Shown here: piece after piece, positions 3,861 to 17,029 of the stretch
Numbering within the stretch: the first letter of the stretch is position 1
How the letters are laid out: the number at the start of each line of letters is the position of its first letter
Assembly (NCBI GenBank): GCA_937910235.1
Contig: CALENB010000012.1
Coordinates: 1 to 41,538 of the forward strand
Source of the DNA: an uncultured Myxococcales bacterium
GTDB taxonomy: Bacteria > Myxococcota_A > UBA9042
DNA length: 41,538 nt
Direction: 5' to 3'
The notes under the pieces: model-generated
What the model was told of the DNA's origin: nothing
What the model saw: the letters and a program-made list of their open reading frames with translations, nothing else
Databases searched by the model: none
Program-made: the position numbers and the translations under genes

Positions 3861-6008
3861 ATGTCGCCCTTCCCTCTTCGCACAGACACGCGCTCAGCCC
3901 GTCTCAGTCGGCTGTGGGTGGCGCTGCTCGTCGTCTCGTCGGGCTGCGGCACCGAGGACTCGAAGCCCGCCACGACGGACACGGCAGGCGGCCTGGACGC
4001 CTTCATCTTCACGCCGCAAGACACCAGCGGTGGCGGCGCCACGGACACGCTCGCCGGGACGGCCGCCGCGGGTCACGATGCCGCGGGCGCCGCGGACACG
4101 ACGACGGACGGCGGCGCGGCCGACAGCCTCGGGCAGACGGGGCAACTGGTCGGTGTCGAAGTGGCGGTCGGCAAGACCGACCTGCTCCTGGCCGAGCGCA
4201 CCACGCTCGTGGTCACCGCGGTCCGCTCCAACGGCAGCAAAGGCCCGCCGACCAAGGACGAGGCGGTCTCGGTGCAGGTCGATGGCCTCACCCAAGCCGG
4301 CGCCGGTGTCGCGGCGGGTGGCGTCGCGCAGCCGGCGGTGGCGGCCTGGAGCTTCGGCGGCAAGCTGCAGCTGGTTGGCGTCCGCCCTGGCAGCGCCAAG
4401 GTGATCGTGACGATCGGCGGTCAATCGGCGGCCGCTGTCACCCTCAACGTCGCGTGGCCCACGACGCCAGGGGTCTGGGCCGCGGTCGCCGACGCGAGCG
4501 GCACGACTATGGCCGAGCGTCAGGCGGACCTACCCGACACGGTGCAGCTGCAGGGCAAAACAGCCGGAGCGGACGGGCTCACCGCCACGATTCGATTTCC
4601 GTTGAGCGCGAAGGCTGGCGACCGCCTCGACCTGACGAAGCCCCCCGCGAAGGGCAGCCTGTCGCTCACCCTCGCCTTCGCCGACCTCGGTGGAGCCAGC
4701 GCCAAGCCAGCGGAGGGCGCGCTGTGGATCGATCAGACAGACAAAGGGCTCTTCCGCGGCACGTTTCTCGGTCGCACCACGCAACTCAAGCCAGCGGTCG
4801 GCGTCTTCATCGTCGAACGACAGGGGATGTTTGGCATCGATCTGCTCGACGAGCCGACCGAGCTCGTGACCAGCGACAACCTGCTGCCGACCACGGGCGA
4901 GCACTACAGCCGCGTCTCGCTCGCTGCGGTTGGGGACGGCAACGCGGTGCTCTACGCACGCCGCATCACCGACGGCCTCAAGGCGAATCTGGAGCGGTGG
5001 CAGATCTCGGGCAAGACCGGAAAGATCACGGCGCTGCCGCCGCTGGTCGCCAACGCCAACGCCTATGTCGACACACCCGCCACGAAGGCGCCAGCGTTCG
5101 GACACGTGGTGCGGGCGAGCCATCCGACGGTCACCGCGGAGCTCTGGGAAGGTCGGGACGGCAAGGGCGCCACGAAACCGCATCGCCTCTATGTGCACCT
5201 GCTCGACGCCAAGGGCGTGGAGATCGCCAAGCCGGTGATGGTCAGCGACGACGTGTGTGATGGCGCCTGCCGTCCAGTCGTGGCCGTGCTGCCCTCGACG
5301 CGGTTCATCGTGATGTGGAGCGCGCCTGGCGGCGGCGTTAAGGTCCGTCGAATCAAAGGCCAGCCGGCCGCCGGAGAGGTTGATTTTGCGGCCGCGCAGC
5401 CGCTCGTGCTCGCGCCACAGGGCACGGGTGGCACGCTGGCCGTGCACGAGAGCAACGTGCTGACAGGCTGGTTCGATCCGGACCAAGGCCACGTGTGGCG
5501 GCAGTATACGGACAAGTCGACGGGCAACCTCTCGGCGCTCGCGCCGGCGCAGGCAGTCGGCGTCGCCTCGACCAAGGCGCCGCCACAGAGTCTGCTGGCG
5601 GTCCAGACGCCCGCTGGCGCGCCGAACCTCCTCTTTGTCAGCGCCTGGGTGGACTACGCGCCGACCGGCAAGCTCGCGATGCGGCGGATCGGGCTCGACG
5701 GCACCGCGTTTGGGCTCCCGTCGCCGATCGCCGATGTCGACGCAGACGCGCTGTGGGGGCGTGTCGGCAAGGCGGGTCAGATCGCGCTTCTGCACCGCAG
5801 CAGCAACGGCGCGCTGGTGCTGCGCAAGCGCTTGTTTGGCAGCTTCAAGGACACAGGCGCGCCGCTGGGCGACGCGGTGACGATGCTGGCGAACGCGACG
5901 TATCCTGTGGCGCCCGCGTTGGTCTATCTCGCCGATGCCGACGTCTGGATCCTGGCCTGGAGCGGCGACGAGACCAGCCCTGGAGTGTATGTCCGCCGCT
6001 TTCGCTAG
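3861..6008 (+). CDS. Secreted lipoprotein with Ig-like (Big2-type) domain and possible propeller region
   Basis: I start the 715-residue protein at the ATG at 3861 because AGGAG lies ~9 bases upstream and it gives a proper lipoprotein signal (basic n-region, hydrophobic core, VVSSGC lipobox). The frame stays open to 3534 but that extension has no signal. After the Cys there is a ~65-residue Asp/Thr/Gly/Ala-rich tether. Residues ~80-180 look like a bacterial Ig-like domain: alternating beta strands with a GSAKVIVTIGG-type ending. The remainder is beta-rich with repeated short segments, possibly a propeller. No catalytic motif was found. It is anchored in an envelope membrane, probably the outer one. 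It ends 50 bases before the tandem radical SAM gene on the same strand, so co-transcription is likely. Function unknown. Confidence 0.8.
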   Translation: MSPFPLRTDTRSARLSRLWVALLVVSSGCGTEDSKPATTDTAGGLDAFIFTPQDTSGGGATDTLAGTAAAGHDAAGAADTTTDGGAADSLGQTGQLVGVEVAVGKTDLLLAERTTLVVTAVRSNGSKGPPTKDEAVSVQVDGLTQAGAGVAAGGVAQPAVAAWSFGGKLQLVGVRPGSAKVIVTIGGQSAAAVTLNVAWPTTPGVWAAVADASGTTMAERQADLPDTVQLQGKTAGADGLTATIRFPLSAKAGDRLDLTKPPAKGSLSLTLAFADLGGASAKPAEGALWIDQTDKGLFRGTFLGRTTQLKPAVGVFIVERQGMFGIDLLDEPTELVTSDNLLPTTGEHYSRVSLAAVGDGNAVLYARRITDGLKANLERWQISGKTGKITALPPLVANANAYVDTPATKAPAFGHVVRASHPTVTAELWEGRDGKGATKPHRLYVHLLDAKGVEIAKPVMVSDDVCDGACRPVVAVLPSTRFIVMWSAPGGGVKVRRIKGQPAAGEVDFAAAQPLVLAPQGTGGTLAVHESNVLTGWFDPDQGHVWRQYTDKSTGNLSALAPAQAVGVASTKAPPQSLLAVQTPAGAPNLLFVSAWVDYAPTGKLAMRRIGLDGTAFGLPSPIADVDADALWGRVGKAGQIALLHRSSNGALVLRKRLFGSFKDTGAPLGDAVTMLANATYPVAPALVYLADADVWILAWSGDETSPGVYVRRFR

Positions 6009-6058: not shown

Positions 6059-7915
6059 ATGAACACCGCCACGATACGGCTGCTGCTGCGGTGCAACCTG
6101 CGCTGCGGGTTCTGCAACGCACGCGCTGAGCACGACGATCCATCCCGGTTCTCAGCCGAGGCCGTCTCGACGCAGATCGACGCGGCGCTGGCGGCCGGCG
6201 CCCAAGAGCTGATCTTGACCGGGGGCGAGCCCACGCTACGACCGGATCTCACTGAGCTGGTCCGGCGGGCGAGCCAAACCGGCGCGCGGGTCGTGGTGGA
6301 GACCAACGCCATGGCGCTGAGCCTACCGGGGCGCGCGGCGCAGCTCGCAGCGGCGGGCGCGCCGGTTGTGCGGTGGGGGATCTCGGCGCTTGGCGCGCAG
6401 ATGGACAGCGTCGGTCAGCGTGCTGGCGCGTTCGAGCTCGGCCTCAAGGGGGTCCGCGAGGCCGTGACCGCAGGCCTGGAGGTAGAGGTCGCCTACGCCT
6501 TGAGTGGGCCTGGCCTCGACGACTTGGCGCGCGTCCCAGCCTGGCTGCGGGCGAATCTACCGGAGGCGCGCGGCTTGCTGGTGCGGGTCGTCAAAGAGGC
6601 GCCGGACGGCTTTGTCGTGCGACCACGGGACGCGGCGCAGGCCTTGCGGGCGCTGGCCGTCGCCTGCAGTGAGACCGACCTGGTGCTGCAGCTCGACCCA
6701 CGGTACGCCCTGCCCCTGTGCGCGTTGGCCGGGGCCAACCAGTTTCCGGCGTTGTTTCGGGTCGCTGGAGAAGCCGCCACCGGCAACCTCACCCGGATCG
6801 CTGCCTGCGAGACGTGCGCCATCGACGACATGTGCGCCGGCGTCGACCGCGCCTGGATCGCCCGCTTTGGCGACGCCGATTTCACCGCCGTGCACAGACG
6901 CCACCGACGCCGCGCCCGTGGCCTGCTCTCGGGGCGCTCAGCGCAGGACGCGCTGCGGGCGCCCGGCCAGGGGATGTGGAGCGAAACCGCCGGATCTGCG
7001 GTGTTGGAGCGCGTGATCCGCGTCAACTTCCACTGCAACCAAGACTGCGAGTTCTGCTTCGTCGACCGGGTGTTGCCGGCGCCGCCTGCGGCCAGCGTTC
7101 GGGCCCAGATCGACCGAGCTGCAGCGGACGGCGTAGCGCTGCTGTCCTTGAGCGGCGGAGAGCCGACGCTCGATCCCGACCTAGCCGACCACATCCGCTA
7201 CGCCACGGCCTTGGGTTTACGGGTCCAGATTCAAACCAACGCGACCCGAACCGCAGACCCAGCCTTGGTCCAGGCGCTCGCTGACGCCGGGCTCGCCGAG
7301 GCGTTCATCTCGCTGCACGGCGCGACCGCGGCCACCTCTGACGCCGTCACCCGCGCGCCCGGCACCTTCGCCAAGACGCTGCTCGGCATCGATCAGCTGC
7401 TCGCTCACGGCGTCCGCGTCAGCCTCAACTGCGTCATCACCGGCCCAAATCATCGCGATCTGGTCGCCTTGCCGGAGCTGATCGCGGCGCGCTGGGGCGG
7501 CGTCCCCACCCTCAACTTCTCCTGGGCCAACGCCAACAGCGCGCTGGTGCCGATCGACGAAGACGTCACCCCCAAGTTCTCCGCCGCCCGCCCCTATCTG
7601 AAGGCGGCACTCGACGCCTGCACAGCGCTGGGGCTCGATTGGCGCGGCCTGACCGGGGAGTGCGGCGTCCCGTTGTGTTTCCCAGACGCCGCGTGGCTCG
7701 ATCCAGCGCGTGTTCCGGACCTAGGCCACGAAGCCGCTGGCGCCGGGTTCATCAAGCCCGCTGAGTGCGACACCTGCGTCCTGTCGTCTCGCTGCGTGGG
7801 TGTGCGGCAGGGCTACGCGGATCTGCACGGCCTCGACGAGCTCCGCCCGGTCCACAGCCTCGCAGGTTGGCAGGCAGCGCGTGGGAATACCGAACCACCC
7901 TCTGGACATCCATAG
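6059..7915 (+). CDS. Tandem (internally duplicated) radical SAM protein with two auxiliary-cluster motifs
   Basis: The ATG at 6059 places the first cluster motif at residue 12, as usual for the family; the frame open upstream is shadow. The 618-residue protein holds two complete radical SAM modules. Module 1 has CNLRCGFC (Cys12, 16, 19) and LTGGEPTL (~54-61), then PLC (Cys221) and CETCAIDDMC (Cys250, 253, 259). Module 2 has CNQDCEFC (Cys326, 330, 333) and LSGGEPTL (~364-371), then PLC (Cys540, with Cys535 nearby) and CDTCVLSSRC (Cys570, 573, 579). The three-Cys motif binds the SAM-cleaving [4Fe-4S] cluster in this superfamily; the later cysteines resemble SPASM/twitch-type auxiliary cluster ligands. 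The near-identical spacing in both halves points to internal duplication. The substrate is unknown: peptide modification is one possibility, but no precursor peptide gene was recognised nearby. Neighbours are a lipoprotein upstream and moxR 118 bases downstream. Confidence 0.9.
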   Translation: MNTATIRLLLRCNLRCGFCNARAEHDDPSRFSAEAVSTQIDAALAAGAQELILTGGEPTLRPDLTELVRRASQTGARVVVETNAMALSLPGRAAQLAAAGAPVVRWGISALGAQMDSVGQRAGAFELGLKGVREAVTAGLEVEVAYALSGPGLDDLARVPAWLRANLPEARGLLVRVVKEAPDGFVVRPRDAAQALRALAVACSETDLVLQLDPRYALPLCALAGANQFPALFRVAGEAATGNLTRIAACETCAIDDMCAGVDRAWIARFGDADFTAVHRRHRRRARGLLSGRSAQDALRAPGQGMWSETAGSAVLERVIRVNFHCNQDCEFCFVDRVLPAPPAASVRAQIDRAAADGVALLSLSGGEPTLDPDLADHIRYATALGLRVQIQTNATRTADPALVQALADAGLAEAFISLHGATAATSDAVTRAPGTFAKTLLGIDQLLAHGVRVSLNCVITGPNHRDLVALPELIAARWGGVPTLNFSWANANSALVPIDEDVTPKFSAARPYLKAALDACTALGLDWRGLTGECGVPLCFPDAAWLDPARVPDLGHEAAGAGFIKPAECDTCVLSSRCVGVRQGYADLHGLDELRPVHSLAGWQAARGNTEPPSGHP

Positions 7916-8033: not shown

Positions 8034-9020
<987 letters not shown>

Positions 9021-9083
9021 TTGCCGCGGCTGCGGCGGGTGGATTCGGTGGCTGACACGGCTTTTGTGAGGGGAGAGTAACGC

Positions 9084-9962
9084 ATGGCGGCGACGAGCGA
9101 GATCCTCAAGAAGGTCCGCGAAATCGAGCTGGTAACCCGGCGGCTGGTGACGACTGCCTTGGCGGGTCAGTACCACGCGGTGTTCAAGGGTCGGGGCATG
9201 AGCTTCGACTCTGTGCGGGAGTATCAACCCGGCGACGACGTGCGCATGATCGACTGGAACGTGACCGCGCGCACCGGCGAGCCGTTCATCAAGACCTTTG
9301 TCGAAGAGCGTGAGCTGACGGTGATCATCGCCGTCGACATGAGCGCCTCGGGAGAGCTGGGGACGGTGGATCAGAGCAAACGCGAGCTGGCTGCGGAGAT
9401 CGCGGCGGTGCTGGCGTTCTCCGCCATCAAGAACAACGACCGCGTCGGCTTGGTGATGTTCACGGATCGCATCGAGCGCTACATCCCGCCAAAGAAGGGC
9501 CGCAGCCACGTTCTACGGGTCATTTTGGAGCTGCTGGAGTTCGAGCCTGAGGGCCACGGCACCGACATCGAGGTCGCCTGCACCTACCTGACCAACATCC
9601 AGCGGCGGCGGTCGGTGGTGTTTCTGCTCTCGGACTTCATCGCTGACGACTACGAACGCGCGCTCGGCATCGCCGGCCGGCGCCACGACTTGGTGCCCAT
9701 GGTCATCGAGGATAAGTCGGAGCTGGCCCTGCCCGATCTCGGCCTCGTCGCGCTGGAAGACGCGGAGACGGGCGAGATCATGTGGCTCGACACCGGCTCG
9801 CGCAATGTGCGAAAGACCTACAAGAACACGGCCGAAGCGCAGATCGCAGCGCGTGACACGTCGTTTCGCAAGCTCGGCCTGGAGCCCATCTCAGCGACGG
9901 TGGGAGAGAGCTATCTCGCTGCGCTCACCGCCTACTTCCGGCGGCGGGCGGCGAGGCAGTAG
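9084..9962 (+). CDS. DUF58 domain protein (MoxR partner, VWA-like)
   Basis: The 292-residue protein carries the DUF58 signature around residues 36-80 (GRGMSFDSVREYQPGDD, then IDWNVTARTGEPFIK and EEREL), followed by a von Willebrand A-like fold with DMSAS at 85-89 in place of the MIDAS motif. There is no membrane segment, so it should be cytoplasmic or peripheral. The ATG at 9084 has a strong GAGGGGAGAG element about 9 bases upstream. DUF58 proteins are encoded next to MoxR and Bat genes in many genomes and are thought to be adaptors or substrates of the ATPase. It follows moxR by 63 bases and precedes the BatD-like/RDD fusion by 74. Confidence 0.93.
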   Translation: MAATSEILKKVREIELVTRRLVTTALAGQYHAVFKGRGMSFDSVREYQPGDDVRMIDWNVTARTGEPFIKTFVEERELTVIIAVDMSASGELGTVDQSKRELAAEIAAVLAFSAIKNNDRVGLVMFTDRIERYIPPKKGRSHVLRVILELLEFEPEGHGTDIEVACTYLTNIQRRRSVVFLLSDFIADDYERALGIAGRRHDLVPMVIEDKSELALPDLGLVALEDAETGEIMWLDTGSRNVRKTYKNTAEAQIAARDTSFRKLGLEPISATVGESYLAALTAYFRRRAARQ

Positions 9963-10036
9963 CCCGCGCTGACGCCCTCGCCAGCCCGCCACGACAAGCG
10001 CCGCCCCTTCAACCCCATCAGGAGCCCAGCCCGACG

Positions 10037-11722
10037 ATGTCTCGCCCGTTGACCCCCACCCTACCCCGCCTCTTGGTTGCGCTGCTGATCGCGCCGATCG
10101 TGGCGCTGCCAACGGCCGTCAGCGCCGCGGATCCCGTGCCGTCGGCCGCTGCGACGTCGCCGGCAGTCCCGCGTCCCCCTGCCGGTGGCGCTGTTGGTGC
10201 GCCGACCGCGACTGCAGACAAGCCCTCACCCGTCAAAGTGAGCGCCAGCCTCAGCAAGCCGAACCCAACCTTCGGCGACCGGCTGGAGGTCGTCGTCGAG
10301 CTGCGCTACCCGATCGACGTGCGCGCCTTTTTCCCCAGAAAACCAGACCTGAAGCCCCTGCTGACGCTCCCTGACGACCCTGGCACCGTGACGCAGCGCG
10401 AGGAGAACGGCGAGACGATCGAGGTGCTGCGCATCCCGGTGTTGGTCGTGAAATCGGGGTTGCTGCGCACGCCGAGCGTCGAGGTGCCGTGGCACCGGGT
10501 GACGGCGAGCGGCGGCGCGGGCGAGAGTGGGACGGCGACGCTGCCGGGGCTACGAATCGTGGTGAGCAGCCAATTCGCGGACGAGACCGACGTCAAACCC
10601 GCGGCGCTGCCCAAGCCGATGCCGCTCGTCGAAGAGAACGTACCGCTGGAGATCGGGCTGCTGGTGCTGATCATGATGGCGCTGGCCGGCGCCCTGACGG
10701 CCATTGGCCTGCGCATCTACCGCAACCGCGCGCTGCGGGCCGAGCCGGAGCCGGACATCCCGCCGCACATCGTCGCCTTTGGCCGCATCGCCGAGCTGCG
10801 TCAGTCCGAACGCCTCGAAGCGGATGAGCCGCGGCTCGTGCTCGGTGAGATCAGCACGATCCTGCGCGAGTACATCGGCCGGCGTTTTCGTGTGCCGGCG
10901 CTCGACATGACCTCCACCGAGCTGCTCGAAGCGCTGGAAGGCAAAGATCTGCGGGGCATCGGCCTCAACGAGTTCCAAGATTTCACGTCGGTCGGCGACC
11001 TGGTGAAGTTCGCGCGGCAGCCCGCGACGCCCGATTTTCTGGGCCAGCAGCTGGCGTGGATCGAGCGCGTGATCAACCGCACCATGCAGACGCCGGAGGA
11101 AGTCGAGCGCCTGCGACAGCAGCAGCTGGCGCGACTGGCGCGGCAGAAGCGACTGCGCATCCAGGTCATGGCGCCGGCGCCGCTGCGATTGTTGGCCTTT
11201 GGTCTCGATTTTTTCATCGGCGCGGGGCTGACGCTGCTCGCCGCTTGGCTGGCCATCGACACCGGTCAGCGTGGCCTCTTTGACGCGAGCTACGGTCTGT
11301 TCCTGGCCTGGTTGGTCATGCGTGACCTGCTGGGCGAGGCCTCGCCGGGCAAGGCCTTGGTCGGGCTGCGCATCGCGGAGTGGGACCCAGCGGCCGAGGT
11401 CGATCCAGACGCCGTGCTGCGCGAGGATGCCGCGGCCCAACGCTTCTCTCAGCAAGCGCCGGTGGCCAGCTTCGGCGCGCGGCTGCAGCGTAATCTGCTC
11501 ATGTTGCTGCCGGGCGCTGGGCTCGTCGCCGAGGCGCTGACGTGCTGGTACCTCCCTGAGATGCGGCGTCTGGGCGACCAATGGGCGGAGACGCGGGTCA
11601 TCGACGCCCGCTATGGACTGCGCACCGCGGTGACGGGCTGGGGCCCCGGCGCTGTGGCCTGTGTGGCCGCCGTGGTGCTGCTGCTGCTGCCCCTGTTGGT
11701 GCTGGGAGGGCGGCCGCTATGA
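10037..11722 (+). CDS. BatD-like periplasmic domain fused to DUF4381-like and RDD membrane domains
   Basis: The 561-residue protein has a signal peptide (residues 1-31, cleavage near SAADP), a beta-rich extracytoplasmic domain (~65-190) in the position and style of BatD N-terminal modules, and a TM helix (~201-222). A cytoplasmic helical domain (~235-370) follows with the ILREYIGRRFRVP...TSTELLEAL and DLVKFAR features seen in DUF4381-type proteins. The C-terminal region starts LLAFGLDFFIGAG (RDD family Arg/Asp pattern) with helices at ~390-430 and continues through GEASPGKALVGLRI to a final hydrophobic helix at ~538-557. Separate families are joined in one chain. The stop overlaps the batA start by four bases (ATGA, 11719-11722), implying translational coupling. 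The RDD part could bind a ligand or form an oligomeric channel; that is inference. Confidence 0.75.
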   Translation: MSRPLTPTLPRLLVALLIAPIVALPTAVSAADPVPSAAATSPAVPRPPAGGAVGAPTATADKPSPVKVSASLSKPNPTFGDRLEVVVELRYPIDVRAFFPRKPDLKPLLTLPDDPGTVTQREENGETIEVLRIPVLVVKSGLLRTPSVEVPWHRVTASGGAGESGTATLPGLRIVVSSQFADETDVKPAALPKPMPLVEENVPLEIGLLVLIMMALAGALTAIGLRIYRNRALRAEPEPDIPPHIVAFGRIAELRQSERLEADEPRLVLGEISTILREYIGRRFRVPALDMTSTELLEALEGKDLRGIGLNEFQDFTSVGDLVKFARQPATPDFLGQQLAWIERVINRTMQTPEEVERLRQQQLARLARQKRLRIQVMAPAPLRLLAFGLDFFIGAGLTLLAAWLAIDTGQRGLFDASYGLFLAWLVMRDLLGEASPGKALVGLRIAEWDPAAEVDPDAVLREDAAAQRFSQQAPVASFGARLQRNLLMLLPGAGLVAEALTCWYLPEMRRLGDQWAETRVIDARYGLRTAVTGWGPGAVACVAAVVLLLLPLLVLGGRPL

Positions 11723-12837
11723 CGAGTAGCTTCACGTTCGAACACCCGTGGTTCCTGCTGGCCCTTGTGCCCGTGCTAGCGCTGGCGTGGGTTCGCCTGC
11801 GCGCGCGTCCCGCCACGCTACGCTTCTCAAGCCTGCGGACAGCCCGGAAATCCGCCGTCGGCGCGCGTGCGCGGGTGTGGTGGCTGCCCGACGCCCTGCG
11901 CATCATCGCCGCCGGGTTGCTGGTGGTGGCCATGGCGCGACCGCAGCAGCTCGATCGCGAGCTGCTCAGCGGCGAGGGCATCGACATCATGATCGCCCTC
12001 GACATGAGCGGCTCCATGAACGCGATCGACGCCAGCGAGGAAGAGATCACGAAGATCCAGGCCAGCGGCAGCGAGCCGCTCAATCGGTTCGGCACCGCCC
12101 GCGAGATCCTTAAGCAGTTCATCCGCGAGCGAAAGAGCGACCGGGTCGGCCTCGTCATCTTCGGCGGCGAGGCCTTCCTGCGCTTCCCACCGACGCTGGA
12201 CTACGTGCGCCTGCTCAACTCGCTCGATGGCTTGGTGCTCGACAACGGCCGACGCCACGATCAGCACGAGACGAACTGCGCCAACGGCTGCACGATCTCA
12301 GGGTCGGGCACGGCGATCGGCGACGCGCTCAACCGCGCGTACATGCGACTGGAGAACAGCACGGCAAAATCGAAGATGATCATCCTGATCACCGACGGCA
12401 AGCAAGAGGGCGGCGCCATGACGGCGCTGACGGTGCCCAAATACATCGCGAGTCTGCCGAAGAGAGAGCAGGTCCGGATCTACACCTTCCAGGTTGGATC
12501 TGGGCGCGATTCGCGCGTGGCCGCGGTCGATCCGCTGCGTGGCACGCTGCTGCGCGACCGCTTCGGTCGGATTCAGTACCAACGCCCGCAGCGCCCGTTC
12601 CCGACCGACCCAGACCTGCTGCGCCAGGTCGCCGAGATCACCGGCGGCGCCTTCTACCAGAGCTACGATCCAGCCAAGTTCGCCAAGGACTTTCGCGATC
12701 TGGAGCGGACGACCTTCAAGGTCAAGGTGCACACGAACCGCAAGGAGATGTTCTTCCCGTGGCTGCTGTTGGGCCTGATCTTGCTGGGTTGTGAGCAGGT
12801 GCTGCGGCTGACCTGGCTGCGGACCTTCCCGACATGA
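11719..12837 (+). CDS. batA: BatA-type VWA membrane protein
   Basis: A 372-residue BatA homologue. N-terminal helices at ~10-25 and ~58-74 form the Bat N-terminal region, which begins FEHPWFLLAL and ends in AMARPQ. The VWA domain has a complete MIDAS: DMSGS (95-99), Thr198 in SGTAIG and Asp226 in ITDGK. A final TM helix lies at ~349-367. The MIDAS binds a divalent metal and typically a partner acidic residue. Odd: between the domain body and the MIDAS Thr is an extra loop (about 174-196) with His180, His183, Cys187 and Cys191, a plausible metal site. The ATG is fixed by the ATGA overlap with the preceding gene. An 88-base gap separates it from the BatB/C fusion. Confidence 0.92.
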   Translation: MTSSFTFEHPWFLLALVPVLALAWVRLRARPATLRFSSLRTARKSAVGARARVWWLPDALRIIAAGLLVVAMARPQQLDRELLSGEGIDIMIALDMSGSMNAIDASEEEITKIQASGSEPLNRFGTAREILKQFIRERKSDRVGLVIFGGEAFLRFPPTLDYVRLLNSLDGLVLDNGRRHDQHETNCANGCTISGSGTAIGDALNRAYMRLENSTAKSKMIILITDGKQEGGAMTALTVPKYIASLPKREQVRIYTFQVGSGRDSRVAAVDPLRGTLLRDRFGRIQYQRPQRPFPTDPDLLRQVAEITGGAFYQSYDPAKFAKDFRDLERTTFKVKVHTNRKEMFFPWLLLGLILLGCEQVLRLTWLRTFPT

Positions 12838-12925
12838 GCGCCGCGAGCCGCCGAGCCGACCGTGGCGAGAGGCCCGGAAAATCAACGTTTGAGACGCCCT
12901 GCCGAGGGCTGGAGCAAGACACGCG

Positions 12926-15900
12926 ATGGATGAGCTGACCTTTGCAAGCCCTGAGATGGCCTGGCTGGCCCTGCCCGCCCTGGTGCTAGCTGGGTGGGGC
13001 TTGGTGCAGCTCCGGCGTCTGGCAGACCGACTCAACCGGCTGGGCACGGGCCCCGTCATCGCGCGGGTGGTGGCGAGCTTCGCGCCGAAACGGGCGATGT
13101 GGCAGTGGGTCTGCGTTGGATTGGTCGGGTTGCTGCTCGCCGCCGCCGCGACGAGGCCCCGATACGGGCTGCGCGAGACGGAGGTGGCCAACGCCGGGAT
13201 TGACGTGGTGTTTGTGGTGGACGCCAGCAAATCGATGTTGGTGCGGGACGTGGTGCCCAATCGCCTGCAGGGCACGATGCTGGAGATCTCCGACCTGCTG
13301 TCGAAGCTCGCGGGCGGTCGGGTCGGGCTGGTGCCCTTCGCCGGGATCGCCTTTGTGCAATGCCCGCTGACGACGGACCAAGAGGTCATCCGCACCTACA
13401 TGCGCGAGCTGAGCCCGCGGGACATGCCGGTGGGCGGCACGAACATCGGCCGCGCGATCACGTTGGCGGTGGAGGTGCTGACCGGTGGCCAGCAGGCGGC
13501 GGAGGCGAAGCTGCGTGGCAACCTCATCCCGCAGTTCAAAGGCAGTAAACACAAGGCGATCGTGCTGTTCAGCGACGGTGAAGACCACGAAGGTGCGGCG
13601 CTGAAGGCCGCCAAGAAAGCTGCAGCGAAGGGCATCCGCATCTACACGGTCGGCGTCGGGTCCGGTTTTGGCGATCCGGTGCCGATCATCAGCAAGGACG
13701 GCACGGTGACGGGCACGCTGAAAGACGAGGCCGGCAACCCGATCTTCTCGAAGCTCAACGCCGCGCTGCTCACCGCGATCGCCAAAGAGACGGGGGGATC
13801 GTATCTGCACTACGCCAACAAAACCGTGGTTCCGCAGCTTTTTAGCGCGCTGGACGCGCTCGAGAAGGCCGAATATGCGGAGACGTTCAAGCTGCTGGGC
13901 GAAGATCGCTATCAGTACCTGCTCGGCCCAGCGCTGCTGCTGCTGTTGCTGAGTCTGCTGCTGACGCCGCGTCGCGCCGCTGGTGTGCGTAAGGCTGCCG
14001 CCGGCGTGGCCGTGATCCTCATGACGCTCATCGCGCCGCCCGTGGGGACGGCCCACGCGGTCGGTCCGGCCGCCAAACGCGCCCCGCCAGCGACCGCCCC
14101 GCCGACAGCAGGTGTCCCACCGACCGCCGCCGCGCCCAGCCCCGCCGCGTCGCCCGCAGCGGCCAAGAACCGCGGCGAACGCACGCAGGCCCAAGCCCGC
14201 AAAGACCGTTCGTGGCTGGAGCGCGAGAATCCGGACATCGCCGACGGACGTGACCTCGTCAACTCGGGCAAACCGGGCGAGGCCTTGGCTGCGTTTCGTG
14301 CGGCGAAGGAGAGCCGGCCGGAGCACGCGGTCATTTGGTACAACATCGGGTTGACCCAAGCGCTGCTCGGTCAGTTTGAGGAGGCCAACAAGGCCCTCGG
14401 TCGGGCGCTGTCCGCGTTGGCGGAGTCCGATCCGGAGCTGGAGGCCGACATTCACTACACCGTGGGCACCTCGGAGCTGCTGTGGGGCCAGAACGTGCTG
14501 GCGACGGCCGCGGCGGCGCGTCAGGCCAACGCTGGCGGGGGTCAGGCCAAGCCCGATCCAGCGCCAGGCGCCCAGATTCCCGGCGCGGCAGGCGCGCAAC
14601 CAACGCAACCCGGCGGCAAACCCGCGAGCCAGGAGACGGACGCCAAGAAGGTGCAGGAGCAGGCCGCGGACCACTTCCGCGCCGCGGTCGAGCGGCTGCA
14701 GAAGGCCCTGGTGGCCGCGCCGGCCCGCGTCGATATCCGCCGCAACCTTGAGCTGGCGCGCATGCTGGCCTACCCGCCCTGTAAACGTCGCGACAAGGCC
14801 ATGGAGCCTAACGACCAGATCGACCAGGCCAAGCCACTGCAGCTCGACGCGAAGAAGAAGGAGACCAGCTTTGCCTTGCTCAGCTGCCCGGTGGATCGCG
14901 ACCTGTTTCGCCTCGACCTCAAGACGGGGGATCGGCTGACCGTGAACCTTGAGGCGAAGGCGCCGGACGAGAAGATCGTCGATCCGCTCGACCGCGACGC
15001 GAATCGGCCGGTGGAGCTGGGCGTGCAGCTGCGCAGCCTCGATGGTCAGACCGTGATTCGGGGCGGCGAGAAGCCCACCACAACGGTGCAATGGAGCGAC
15101 ATCAGCCACGACGAGTCTGTGCTGCTCGACGTGCGCAACATCGCCGAGCAAGAGGCCAACTACGATCTGAAAGTGAAGATCTTGCCGGCCTGCCACCGCA
15201 CCGAAGATCAGCTGGAGCCCAACGACTCGCGAGCGCAGGCCCGTGAGGTGCCCGTCGGCCGACCGCTGCCGCTGCGCCTGTGCCCCCGCAATGAAGACTG
15301 GATGGCCGTGCAGCTGTCGCCCGGGCAAGGCCTGCTGGTCAAGGCCAAAGCGGAGTTCGACATCGGCGCGGAGACGCTGAACGTCGATGTGCTCTCCCCC
15401 GAAGGCGAAGTGTTGAGCCGTGGTGTGCAAGCCAAGGAGGGCTACCTCGCGCGGATGGCGTATGCACCCGTAGCCGGGCTCTACTATGTGCGGGTACGGG
15501 GTGCTATCGACACCGAAGCGAGCTACCAGTTGGTGCTGGAGCTGCTGCCGCCCTGCCAGCGCCGCGACGACCTGTACGAGCAGAACGACCAAGCGCTCGG
15601 CGCGAACCCGATGGCCAAGCGCCACCTCAGCGGTGCGCTGCCGCCGATGCAGCTCTGCCCGGGCGACGATGATTGGTATCAAGTCGAGCTTGGCGAGGGC
15701 GAGAGCCTGTTTGTCGACCTCATGGCGCAGGTGGCCGAGCTGCCTGACGTGGCGCCGCTCGCCGGTCAGCTGACGGTGACAATCTACGATGCGCAGGGGC
15801 GGATCTGGGGCGAGGCGAGAGGCGCACCCCTCAAAGCGGGGCAGGAGAGCCTGAGTCGCACGGCGGCCGTGCTGGCGCCGCCGGTCGGGAAATACTGGGT

Positions 15901-17029
15901 GAGGGTCACCGGCGGTGGTGTCGCGGCGCCCGTATTTCCGCTGCCAGAGTTGCCCGCTGACGCTCAGGTCATCGAGGTCGCGCCGCCGCCGCCCAAGCCG
16001 CAACAAGGTGGCGCGCCGGGGCAACCTGGCATGGGTGGTGGAGGCCAGCCGCCGGTGCGTCCCCCGGCGCCTGCGCAGCCGCGGACGCCGGGCATCCGCG
16101 CCATCCCCCACGGCGGCGTGCCCGCGCTGATCCCCGGCGCGGGCGGGCTCCCGCCACAGGGTCCAGGCGGCGGCGCTGGCGCCAAGTCGGCGCCCAAACC
16201 GCCGATGATCCCGAAGATTGTGTTGCCTGAAGGCTTCCCGCGACCAGCCGTCGACGCGCGCCGCGCGCGTCTCGACCTGCCCTATCAGCTGCGCCTGCGT
16301 ATTCTGCCGCCCTGCCCGGCCGGCAACGATGAGCGCGAGCCGAACGACAGCGCCGGAAAAGCAGCCCGCGTGAAGGTGAAGAGCGAGCAGCTGCTGCGCA
16401 TCTGTAAGGGCGACGTCGACTGGCTAGAGGTCGAGCAGAACACCGACCAGAACCTGCAGATCACGGCCCGCTACGATTTTGCCCACGGCGCGCTTGAGAT
16501 GGAGGCGTTCGATGAGCAGGGCGTAAAATCACTCGCCAAGGCTGGCACGGCGGCGCCGCGACTGCCCGGTAAGGCGCACTCGGCTAAGGACGACACCCCG
16601 CAAGCGCGGCGCGGACGCACGGCCACGACCGGCTTGGTGATCAAGGGCGAGAAAGACAAGCGCGTCGTGAAGATCAGGGTCAAAGCCAACCCCAACGTCG
16701 AGAACTTCTACATCCTGCGCGTGCAAGAGCCGCCGCCGCCGAGCGACAAGGGCAACAAGAAGCAGGATCAGAAAGACAACAAGGACGACAAGAAGAAGAA
16801 AGACGACAAGAAGAAGGACCCCAAGAAGCAGGACGACAAGAAGAAGGACCCCAAGAAGAAAGACGAGCAGAAGAAAGAAGAGAAGAAGAAGCAGAAGAAG
16901 GATGAGCGGCGGCAGAAGCAGCTCCGTGACCAGATGAAGCGTCACGACCGCAATCCAAAGAACTTGGAGGCCCAGGAGGCGCTGCGTAAGTCGCCGTTCC
17001 GCAACAGCCGGCCGACGAAGGATTGGTGA
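12926..17029 (+). CDS. batB: BatB-BatC fusion with four EPND/PPC-like repeats and a Lys-rich tail
   Basis: The 1367-residue chain is far longer than BatB (about 330). Residues 1-350 are BatB: two N-terminal helices, a VWA with DASKS (99-103), Thr172 in GGTNIG, Asp217 in FSDGED, and a TM helix at ~330-346. A second hydrophobic stretch (~357-383) ends in an A-H-A cleavage-like motif and resembles a signal peptide. A BatC-like TPR segment follows (~435-530), then four repeats that each open with Cys and a D...EPND or EQND motif and contain an LC..D.DW motif (starting near residues 619, 756, 877 and 1130). A Pro/Gly-rich linker (~1018-1097) splits the third from the fourth. Residues ~1272-1330 are almost all Lys/Asp/Glu/Gln. 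The ATG has GGAG 12 bases upstream. The next ATG follows the stop directly. Confidence 0.85.
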   Translation: MDELTFASPEMAWLALPALVLAGWGLVQLRRLADRLNRLGTGPVIARVVASFAPKRAMWQWVCVGLVGLLLAAAATRPRYGLRETEVANAGIDVVFVVDASKSMLVRDVVPNRLQGTMLEISDLLSKLAGGRVGLVPFAGIAFVQCPLTTDQEVIRTYMRELSPRDMPVGGTNIGRAITLAVEVLTGGQQAAEAKLRGNLIPQFKGSKHKAIVLFSDGEDHEGAALKAAKKAAAKGIRIYTVGVGSGFGDPVPIISKDGTVTGTLKDEAGNPIFSKLNAALLTAIAKETGGSYLHYANKTVVPQLFSALDALEKAEYAETFKLLGEDRYQYLLGPALLLLLLSLLLTPRRAAGVRKAAAGVAVILMTLIAPPVGTAHAVGPAAKRAPPATAPPTAGVPPTAAAPSPAASPAAAKNRGERTQAQARKDRSWLERENPDIADGRDLVNSGKPGEALAAFRAAKESRPEHAVIWYNIGLTQALLGQFEEANKALGRALSALAESDPELEADIHYTVGTSELLWGQNVLATAAAARQANAGGGQAKPDPAPGAQIPGAAGAQPTQPGGKPASQETDAKKVQEQAADHFRAAVERLQKALVAAPARVDIRRNLELARMLAYPPCKRRDKAMEPNDQIDQAKPLQLDAKKKETSFALLSCPVDRDLFRLDLKTGDRLTVNLEAKAPDEKIVDPLDRDANRPVELGVQLRSLDGQTVIRGGEKPTTTVQWSDISHDESVLLDVRNIAEQEANYDLKVKILPACHRTEDQLEPNDSRAQAREVPVGRPLPLRLCPRNEDWMAVQLSPGQGLLVKAKAEFDIGAETLNVDVLSPEGEVLSRGVQAKEGYLARMAYAPVAGLYYVRVRGAIDTEASYQLVLELLPPCQRRDDLYEQNDQALGANPMAKRHLSGALPPMQLCPGDDDWYQVELGEGESLFVDLMAQVAELPDVAPLAGQLTVTIYDAQGRIWGEARGAPLKAGQESLSRTAAVLAPPVGKYWVRVTGGGVAAPVFPLPELPADAQVIEVAPPPPKPQQGGAPGQPGMGGGGQPPVRPPAPAQPRTPGIRAIPHGGVPALIPGAGGLPPQGPGGGAGAKSAPKPPMIPKIVLPEGFPRPAVDARRARLDLPYQLRLRILPPCPAGNDEREPNDSAGKAARVKVKSEQLLRICKGDVDWLEVEQNTDQNLQITARYDFAHGALEMEAFDEQGVKSLAKAGTAAPRLPGKAHSAKDDTPQARRGRTATTGLVIKGEKDKRVVKIRVKANPNVENFYILRVQEPPPPSDKGNKKQDQKDNKDDKKKKDDKKKDPKKQDDKKKDPKKKDEQKKEEKKKQKKDERRQKQLRDQMKRHDRNPKNLEAQEALRKSPFRNSRPTKDW
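16802..16858 (+). repeat. 30-base repeat in the Lys-rich tail coding region
   Basis: A 27-base stretch (16802-16828) recurs exactly 30 bases later (16832-16858), encoding DDKKKDPKK twice. It lies within a purine-rich tract (~16741-16925) that stands out from the GC-rich surroundings because of its AAG/GAC codons. The tract encodes the charged C-terminal tail of the BatB-BatC fusion. Confidence 0.75.

Follow-up and report, generated by a model that had tools for sequence, protein, structure and literature searches.

A tandem radical SAM protein family of Myxococcota with ligands for two iron-sulfur clusters per module and a possible role in His-Xaa-Ser peptide maturation

The window, a 41,538-nucleotide stretch of DNA from an uncultured Myxococcales bacterium, carries a gene for a protein composed of two radical SAM modules of about 290 residues each, separated by a linker of about 29 residues (Table 1). 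Each module has a GGEP motif, at residues 55 and 366 respectively, and a late cysteine group with the pattern C-x28/29-C-x2-C-x5-C. An earlier note on this DNA had described CxxxCxxC, GGEP and a late C..CxxCx5C group in both halves, and the 618-residue translation confirmed this, with spacings exactly as described (209 residues from C12 to C221 and 214 from C326 to C540; 29 from C221 to C250 and 30 from C540 to C570). The module boundaries were set by a module profile built from homologues. We rejected a GTG-started extension of the gene to position 5495, which would overlap the upstream gene and gains no support from the homologue in the same genus. Directly downstream on the same strand lies a run of genes (8034-17029) that, read by eye, encode a MoxR ATPase and DUF58-like and von Willebrand/Bat-like proteins.

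Table 1. Features of the tandem radical SAM gene and its upstream neighbour (positions in the window)
Feature	Position	Strand	Basis or remark
Predicted lipoprotein, 715 aa, no Pfam match	3861..6008	+	Upstream, co-directional; 50 bp gap to radical SAM gene
Two-module radical SAM protein, 618 aa	6059..7915	+	ATG start at 6059
N-terminal radical SAM module, residues 2-287	6062..6919	+	Module HMM, Pfam PF04055, six barrel strands in AF2 model
N-module SAM-cluster motif CNLRCGFC, residues 12-19	6092..6115	+	C12, C16 and C19 invariant
N-module auxiliary-cluster ligands C221, C250, C253, C259	6719..6835	+	Invariant, including relatives without the SAM motif
Linker, residues 288-316	6920..7006	+	Module profile; low pLDDT at 292-296
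C-terminal radical SAM module, residues 317-605	7007..7873	+	Pfam, module HMM, AF2 model
C-module SAM-cluster motif CNQDCEFC, residues 326-333	7034..7057	+	Sequence, invariance in homologues
C-module auxiliary-cluster ligands C540, C570, C573, C579	7676..7795	+	Invariant in homologues

The Pfam Radical_SAM model (PF04055) matches each half separately, with E-values of 1.1e-17 for the N-half and 2.1e-18 for the C-half, and both scores (65.1 and 67.5 bits) pass the gathering score of 29.5. Aligning the two halves with each other, as the earlier note had advised, gave 30% identity over 289 residues (E 5e-25), and the alignment extends through the auxiliary-cysteine region. AlphaFold models of the window protein reached a mean pLDDT of 85 and a pTM of 0.64 with 17 homologues, and 89 and 0.73 with 43 homologues. 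A half lacking either a barrel or a SAM site would have counted against a protein of two full modules; both halves carry a SAM motif, and in both a six-stranded barrel is predicted with high confidence (strands in barrel order, N-half: 3-9, 50-55, 77-82, 103-108, 141-148 and 172-177; C-half: 314-323, 361-366, 388-393, 412-418, 453-460 and 484-489).

Fourteen cysteines (C12, C16, C19, C221, C250, C253, C259, C326, C330, C333, C540, C570, C573 and C579) were invariant in 17 tandem homologues and then in 43 strict tandems with 27-61% identity to the window protein. Because these 43 had been picked for CxxxCxxC and CxxCx5C in both modules, twelve of the fourteen owe their invariance in part to that selection. 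C221 and C540 played no part in the choice of sequences, yet they are invariant in both the 17 and the 43 homologues, and the conservation of all fourteen rules out chance or a frame artefact as the origin of the tandem. C535 was nearly invariant in the first alignment, and the linker is 24-32 residues long in most tandems. From the conserved ligands and the predicted fold, each module is expected to hold two [4Fe-4S] clusters, one that cleaves SAM and an auxiliary one with four cysteine ligands. Because ligands for two clusters are conserved in each module, the suggestion that one chain could hold up to four [4Fe-4S] clusters appears fair.

The two halves had also been proposed to derive from a duplicated ancestral enzyme. 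They are indeed homologous and complete, but they are not each other's closest relatives: among the 194 possible neighbours in a tree of 195 modules, the partner half comes 79th for one and 116th for the other, and several single-module proteins lie closer to the C-module than the N-module does. The N-modules form one clade (support 98) and the C-modules are compatible with one clade (p-AU 0.48), while a single clade of all tandem modules was neither favoured nor rejected by the AU test (p-AU 0.27). A recent duplication of the window gene is ruled out by these ranks and by a split between N- and C-modules that is common to 44 proteins. Distances among N-modules correlate with those among C-modules (r 0.92; none of 2000 permutations was as high), suggesting that the modules co-evolve and that the tandem is an old unit inherited together. 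We therefore describe the N- and C-modules as ancient paralogues, which may have come together either by duplication in place or by fusion of paralogues.

A whole-genome profile search found the family to be frequent among 53 close relatives and in 379 genomes of the phylum; a pattern scan of genome contigs with the window protein had brought up a single relative. Tandem chains with both auxiliary sites intact had been thought rare, a view that finds no support within Myxococcota, where dozens of tandems occur in about 14 taxonomic families; the only relative that carries a name, at 61% identity, is a Myxococcales MAG. The literature that we searched, which included few subscription papers, yielded no description of such a two- or three-module family; FbiC was the only chain with two radical SAM domains to come up. 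The fetched loci contained 44 two-module proteins with all motifs, two triples and 12 proteins initially flagged as having an incomplete N-module. One triple is a 979-residue chain (L110:6427-9366, G374:C203) whose three radical SAM modules are all complete and all contain CxxCx5C; its CxxxCxxC motifs lie at 29, 349 and 677, its GGEP motifs at 77, 390 and 717, and its auxiliary groups at 291, 597 and 931. The other (L048, G010) is a 940-residue chain whose third module lacks GGEP. At a further locus (L049:8629-10467, G013:C141) the tandem gene is apparently broken into two ORFs, the modules being separated by a stop or a frameshift.

On re-reading, seven of the 12 flagged N-modules proved to be truly incomplete. 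In two cases (L126|5 and L131|3) the motif came to light on reading further upstream or in a shifted window, L108 has all three cysteines, and in L046 and L053 the motif lies in earlier gene calls, so that these two were start-site artefacts. The seven degenerate tandems (L114, L126|6, L127, L128, L130, L131|11 and L136) lack the N-module CxxxCxxC and keep all four N-module auxiliary cysteines. Two catalytic sites are therefore not universal in the family, and this pattern of loss and retention suggests that the auxiliary site of the first module has a role that seems independent of adjacent SAM cleavage.

The gene surroundings of the tandem vary. The order of lipoprotein, tandem and MoxR run is preserved in the sister genome of the same genus, and the neighbours differ in other tandem loci. 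In one subclade, an oxidoreductase of the Gfo/Idh/MocA type forms the C-terminal domain of the tandem (L052, L056, L057 and L066) or is the next gene after it (L051, L054 and L061), an assignment for which Pfam was run on three of the subclade's loci. In two genomes, a carbamoyltransferase gene adjoins the tandem-Gfo/Idh/MocA fusion (L056:11156-14779 and L057:5191-8811). In several larger genomes, the tandem is part of an island comprising five to seven radical SAM genes (loci L110, L111, L112, L114, L125 and L131). Two of these islands, from two genomes, hold a small His/Cys-rich protein of 92-96 residues between radical SAM genes (L111:2964-3242 and L112:15819-16109), possibly a precursor or metal-binding partner.

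Some of the island loci also hold genes of the His-Xaa-Ser (Hxs) peptide system, for HxsA4, HxsB, HxsD and an HxsD-like protein, and a gene for an HExxH-type peptide hydroxylase. HxsD was present in 67 of 70 genomes with a strong family match and in 61 of the remaining 309 (Fisher p 2e-34, confounded by phylogeny), and two of the three HxsD-negative family genomes are only 58% and 67% complete. When matches had to span both modules, HxsD was found in 46 of 48 genomes, one of the 48 (G330) being a case of neighbouring single genes. HxsD is found in every one of the 14 taxonomic families that have matches of this kind. As a control, the radical SAM family PqqE was present in 65 genomes, five of which have HxsD. 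In 61 genomes HxsD is present although the tandem family is absent. The tandem and HxsD are about 50 kb apart or less in seven of 46 genomes (G120, G196, G296, G344, G356, G363 and G365), against a chance expectation of about 0.65; two of the seven belong to one genus, and the linked tandems of G120 and G344 have a degenerate N-module. A single contig of G365 carries the tandem (133 kb), HxsA (146 kb) and HxsD (149 kb). An apparent linkage in G330 was dropped because the match consists of neighbouring single genes. At another locus (L144:121-10386, G204:C38), genes for HxsA4, HxsB, HxsD and an aKG-HExxH-type peptide beta-hydroxylase accompany single-module radical SAM relatives.

The window's own genome encodes HxsB (506 bits, cut-off 370) and HxsD_rel (64.9 bits, cut-off 41), both over the cut-off, together with an HxsD slightly under it (46.2 bits, cut-off 50) and an HxsC-like gene. 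Its Hxs locus (L151:10731-17488, corresponding to G000:C305:16731-23488) contains genes for a degenerate radical SAM protein, a 679-residue radical SAM protein, HxsC-like, HxsD, HxsD-like and HxsB proteins. An HxsA-type peptide of the HCS(HGS)n form (HCSHGSHGSH...) is encoded by an ORF that ends at a contig end; the pieces lie at the end of one contig (L189:8237-8458, G000:C163) and the start of another (L190:1-75, G000:C523), and the assembly probably broke within the repeat, dividing the gene. A full tandem beside Hxs genes was not found in the window's genome or its taxonomic family: here the tandem is on contig C12, HxsB and HxsD on C305 and HxsA on C163/C523, and linkage was seen only in other taxonomic families. 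HxsB and HxsC are mentioned solely as putative maturases (PMC9062424), and no functional study of HxsC was found in the literature searched, with few subscription papers included.

Because the modules are related to HxsC-type maturases, co-occur with HxsD and are in part linked to HxsA, HxsB and HxsD, we tentatively propose, with slightly less than even confidence, that the tandem serves the myxobacterial His-Xaa-Ser system as an accessory peptide maturase with two sites; both the peptide substrate and catalysis at the two sites are inferred. Such an enzyme would form 5'-deoxyadenosyl radicals at two sites in a single chain and take hydrogens from a peptide that one module hands to the other, in an order of events that we infer, while the auxiliary clusters would take up an electron or bind substrate. 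The earlier note had suggested that the protein might modify one substrate twice in succession, a possibility to be set beside the seven relatives that lack the N-module SAM motif. Several observations speak against the peptide reading: the tandem lies apart from the Hxs genes in the window's genome, HxsD occurs in genomes that lack the family, and the scores against HxsC and HxsC4 are well under the curated cut-offs. In a bolder and unlikely extension, chains with two or three complete modules would hand a single His-Xaa-Ser repeat peptide on between sites, with several radical reactions per binding event, in a multi-enzyme Myxococcota network. Catalysis might instead be confined to the C-module, with the N-module an ex-enzyme kept for substrate binding or for electron relay around its auxiliary cluster. 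This would fit the better conservation of C-modules (70% identity within the genus versus 54% for N-modules; GGEP in 44 of 44 C-modules versus 37 of 44 N-modules in two-module proteins) and, as the main evidence, the seven degenerate relatives described above. However, the SAM-cluster cysteines of the N-module are all kept in the window protein and in 43 other two-module proteins, and most of these N-modules also retain GGEP, features that one would not expect to persist in a domain without catalysis. The set was selected for the motif, so that an intact N-module is a common type and not a universal one. Catalysis by the C-module alone strikes us as rather doubtful.

The Gfo/Idh/MocA fusions and neighbours point to a small-molecule substrate, which also speaks against the peptide reading. 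The tandem would then be an enzyme for a sugar, cyclitol or nucleoside working with a Gfo/Idh/MocA dehydrogenase, with chemistry like that of BlsE and other twitch-type sugar radical enzymes; BlsE, a cytosylglucuronate decarboxylase, is the best PDB match by sequence and fold, and the carbamoyltransferase genes in two genomes would be in keeping with this. The likeness to BlsE is, however, restricted to the barrel (219 aligned columns, 28% identity), no gene of the Gfo/Idh/MocA type turned up next to the window gene or within its close subclade, and the association with HxsD would be left unexplained. We hold a small-molecule enzyme to be unlikely. It is more improbable still that the tandem modifies the lipoprotein encoded immediately upstream. 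The two genes are on the same strand, and an orthologue with 58% identity occupies the same place in the sister genome, with a gap of 12 bp; but the pairing is confined to the genus, and the following MoxR gene is equally syntenic.

The family supplies the uncharacterised His-Xaa-Ser peptide system with new enzyme candidates, in a group that makes many natural products. A conserved family with two, and sometimes three, fully liganded modules lends itself to the question of whether radical chemistry can run processively in one polypeptide; the triple chain of L110 has ligands for six [4Fe-4S] clusters. Tandems with a degenerate N-module allow one to ask what auxiliary clusters do once the adjacent SAM site is gone.

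Among known profiles, considering the best 25 of the 76 families that match, HxsC (TIGR03977) aligns over almost its whole length, with residues 6-262 of the N-half on model positions 29-288 of 292, auxiliary region included. The scores of 50.9 bits for the N-half, 56.3 for the C-half and 102.4 for the whole chain do not reach its cut-off of 267.9, and those for HxsC4 (NF038332; 46.1, 74.2 and 114.8 bits) do not reach 500. The window protein differs from both in having two modules per chain, and its halves (46-74 bits) score far below the cut-offs. BlsE (PDB 7vob/7voc), the closest solved structure, shares the same kind of barrel but is a single module acting on a sugar-nucleoside substrate, and its model (TIGR04466, cut-off 400) scores each half at 60-72 bits. 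SPASM/twitch maturases (AnSME, SkfB, SuiB and PqqE) likewise have a barrel followed by a CX2CX5C auxiliary site. Unlike them, the window protein lacks the seven-cysteine SPASM pattern with CX2CX5CX3C, there being no cysteine four residues past C259 or C579, and it has only a single four-cysteine auxiliary site in each of its two modules.

Most radical SAM enzymes have one SAM site per chain, FbiC being the well-known exception. The FO synthase proteins CofG and CofH are not known to carry a SPASM-type auxiliary cysteine group, and their substrate differs. No FO synthase model was among the best 25 of 76 families matching the window protein. A chain with two radical SAM domains is already known in FbiC, a fused two-domain FO synthase (PMC11917521), which resembles the window protein in holding two radical SAM domains in one chain and makes two separate deoxyadenosyl radicals.
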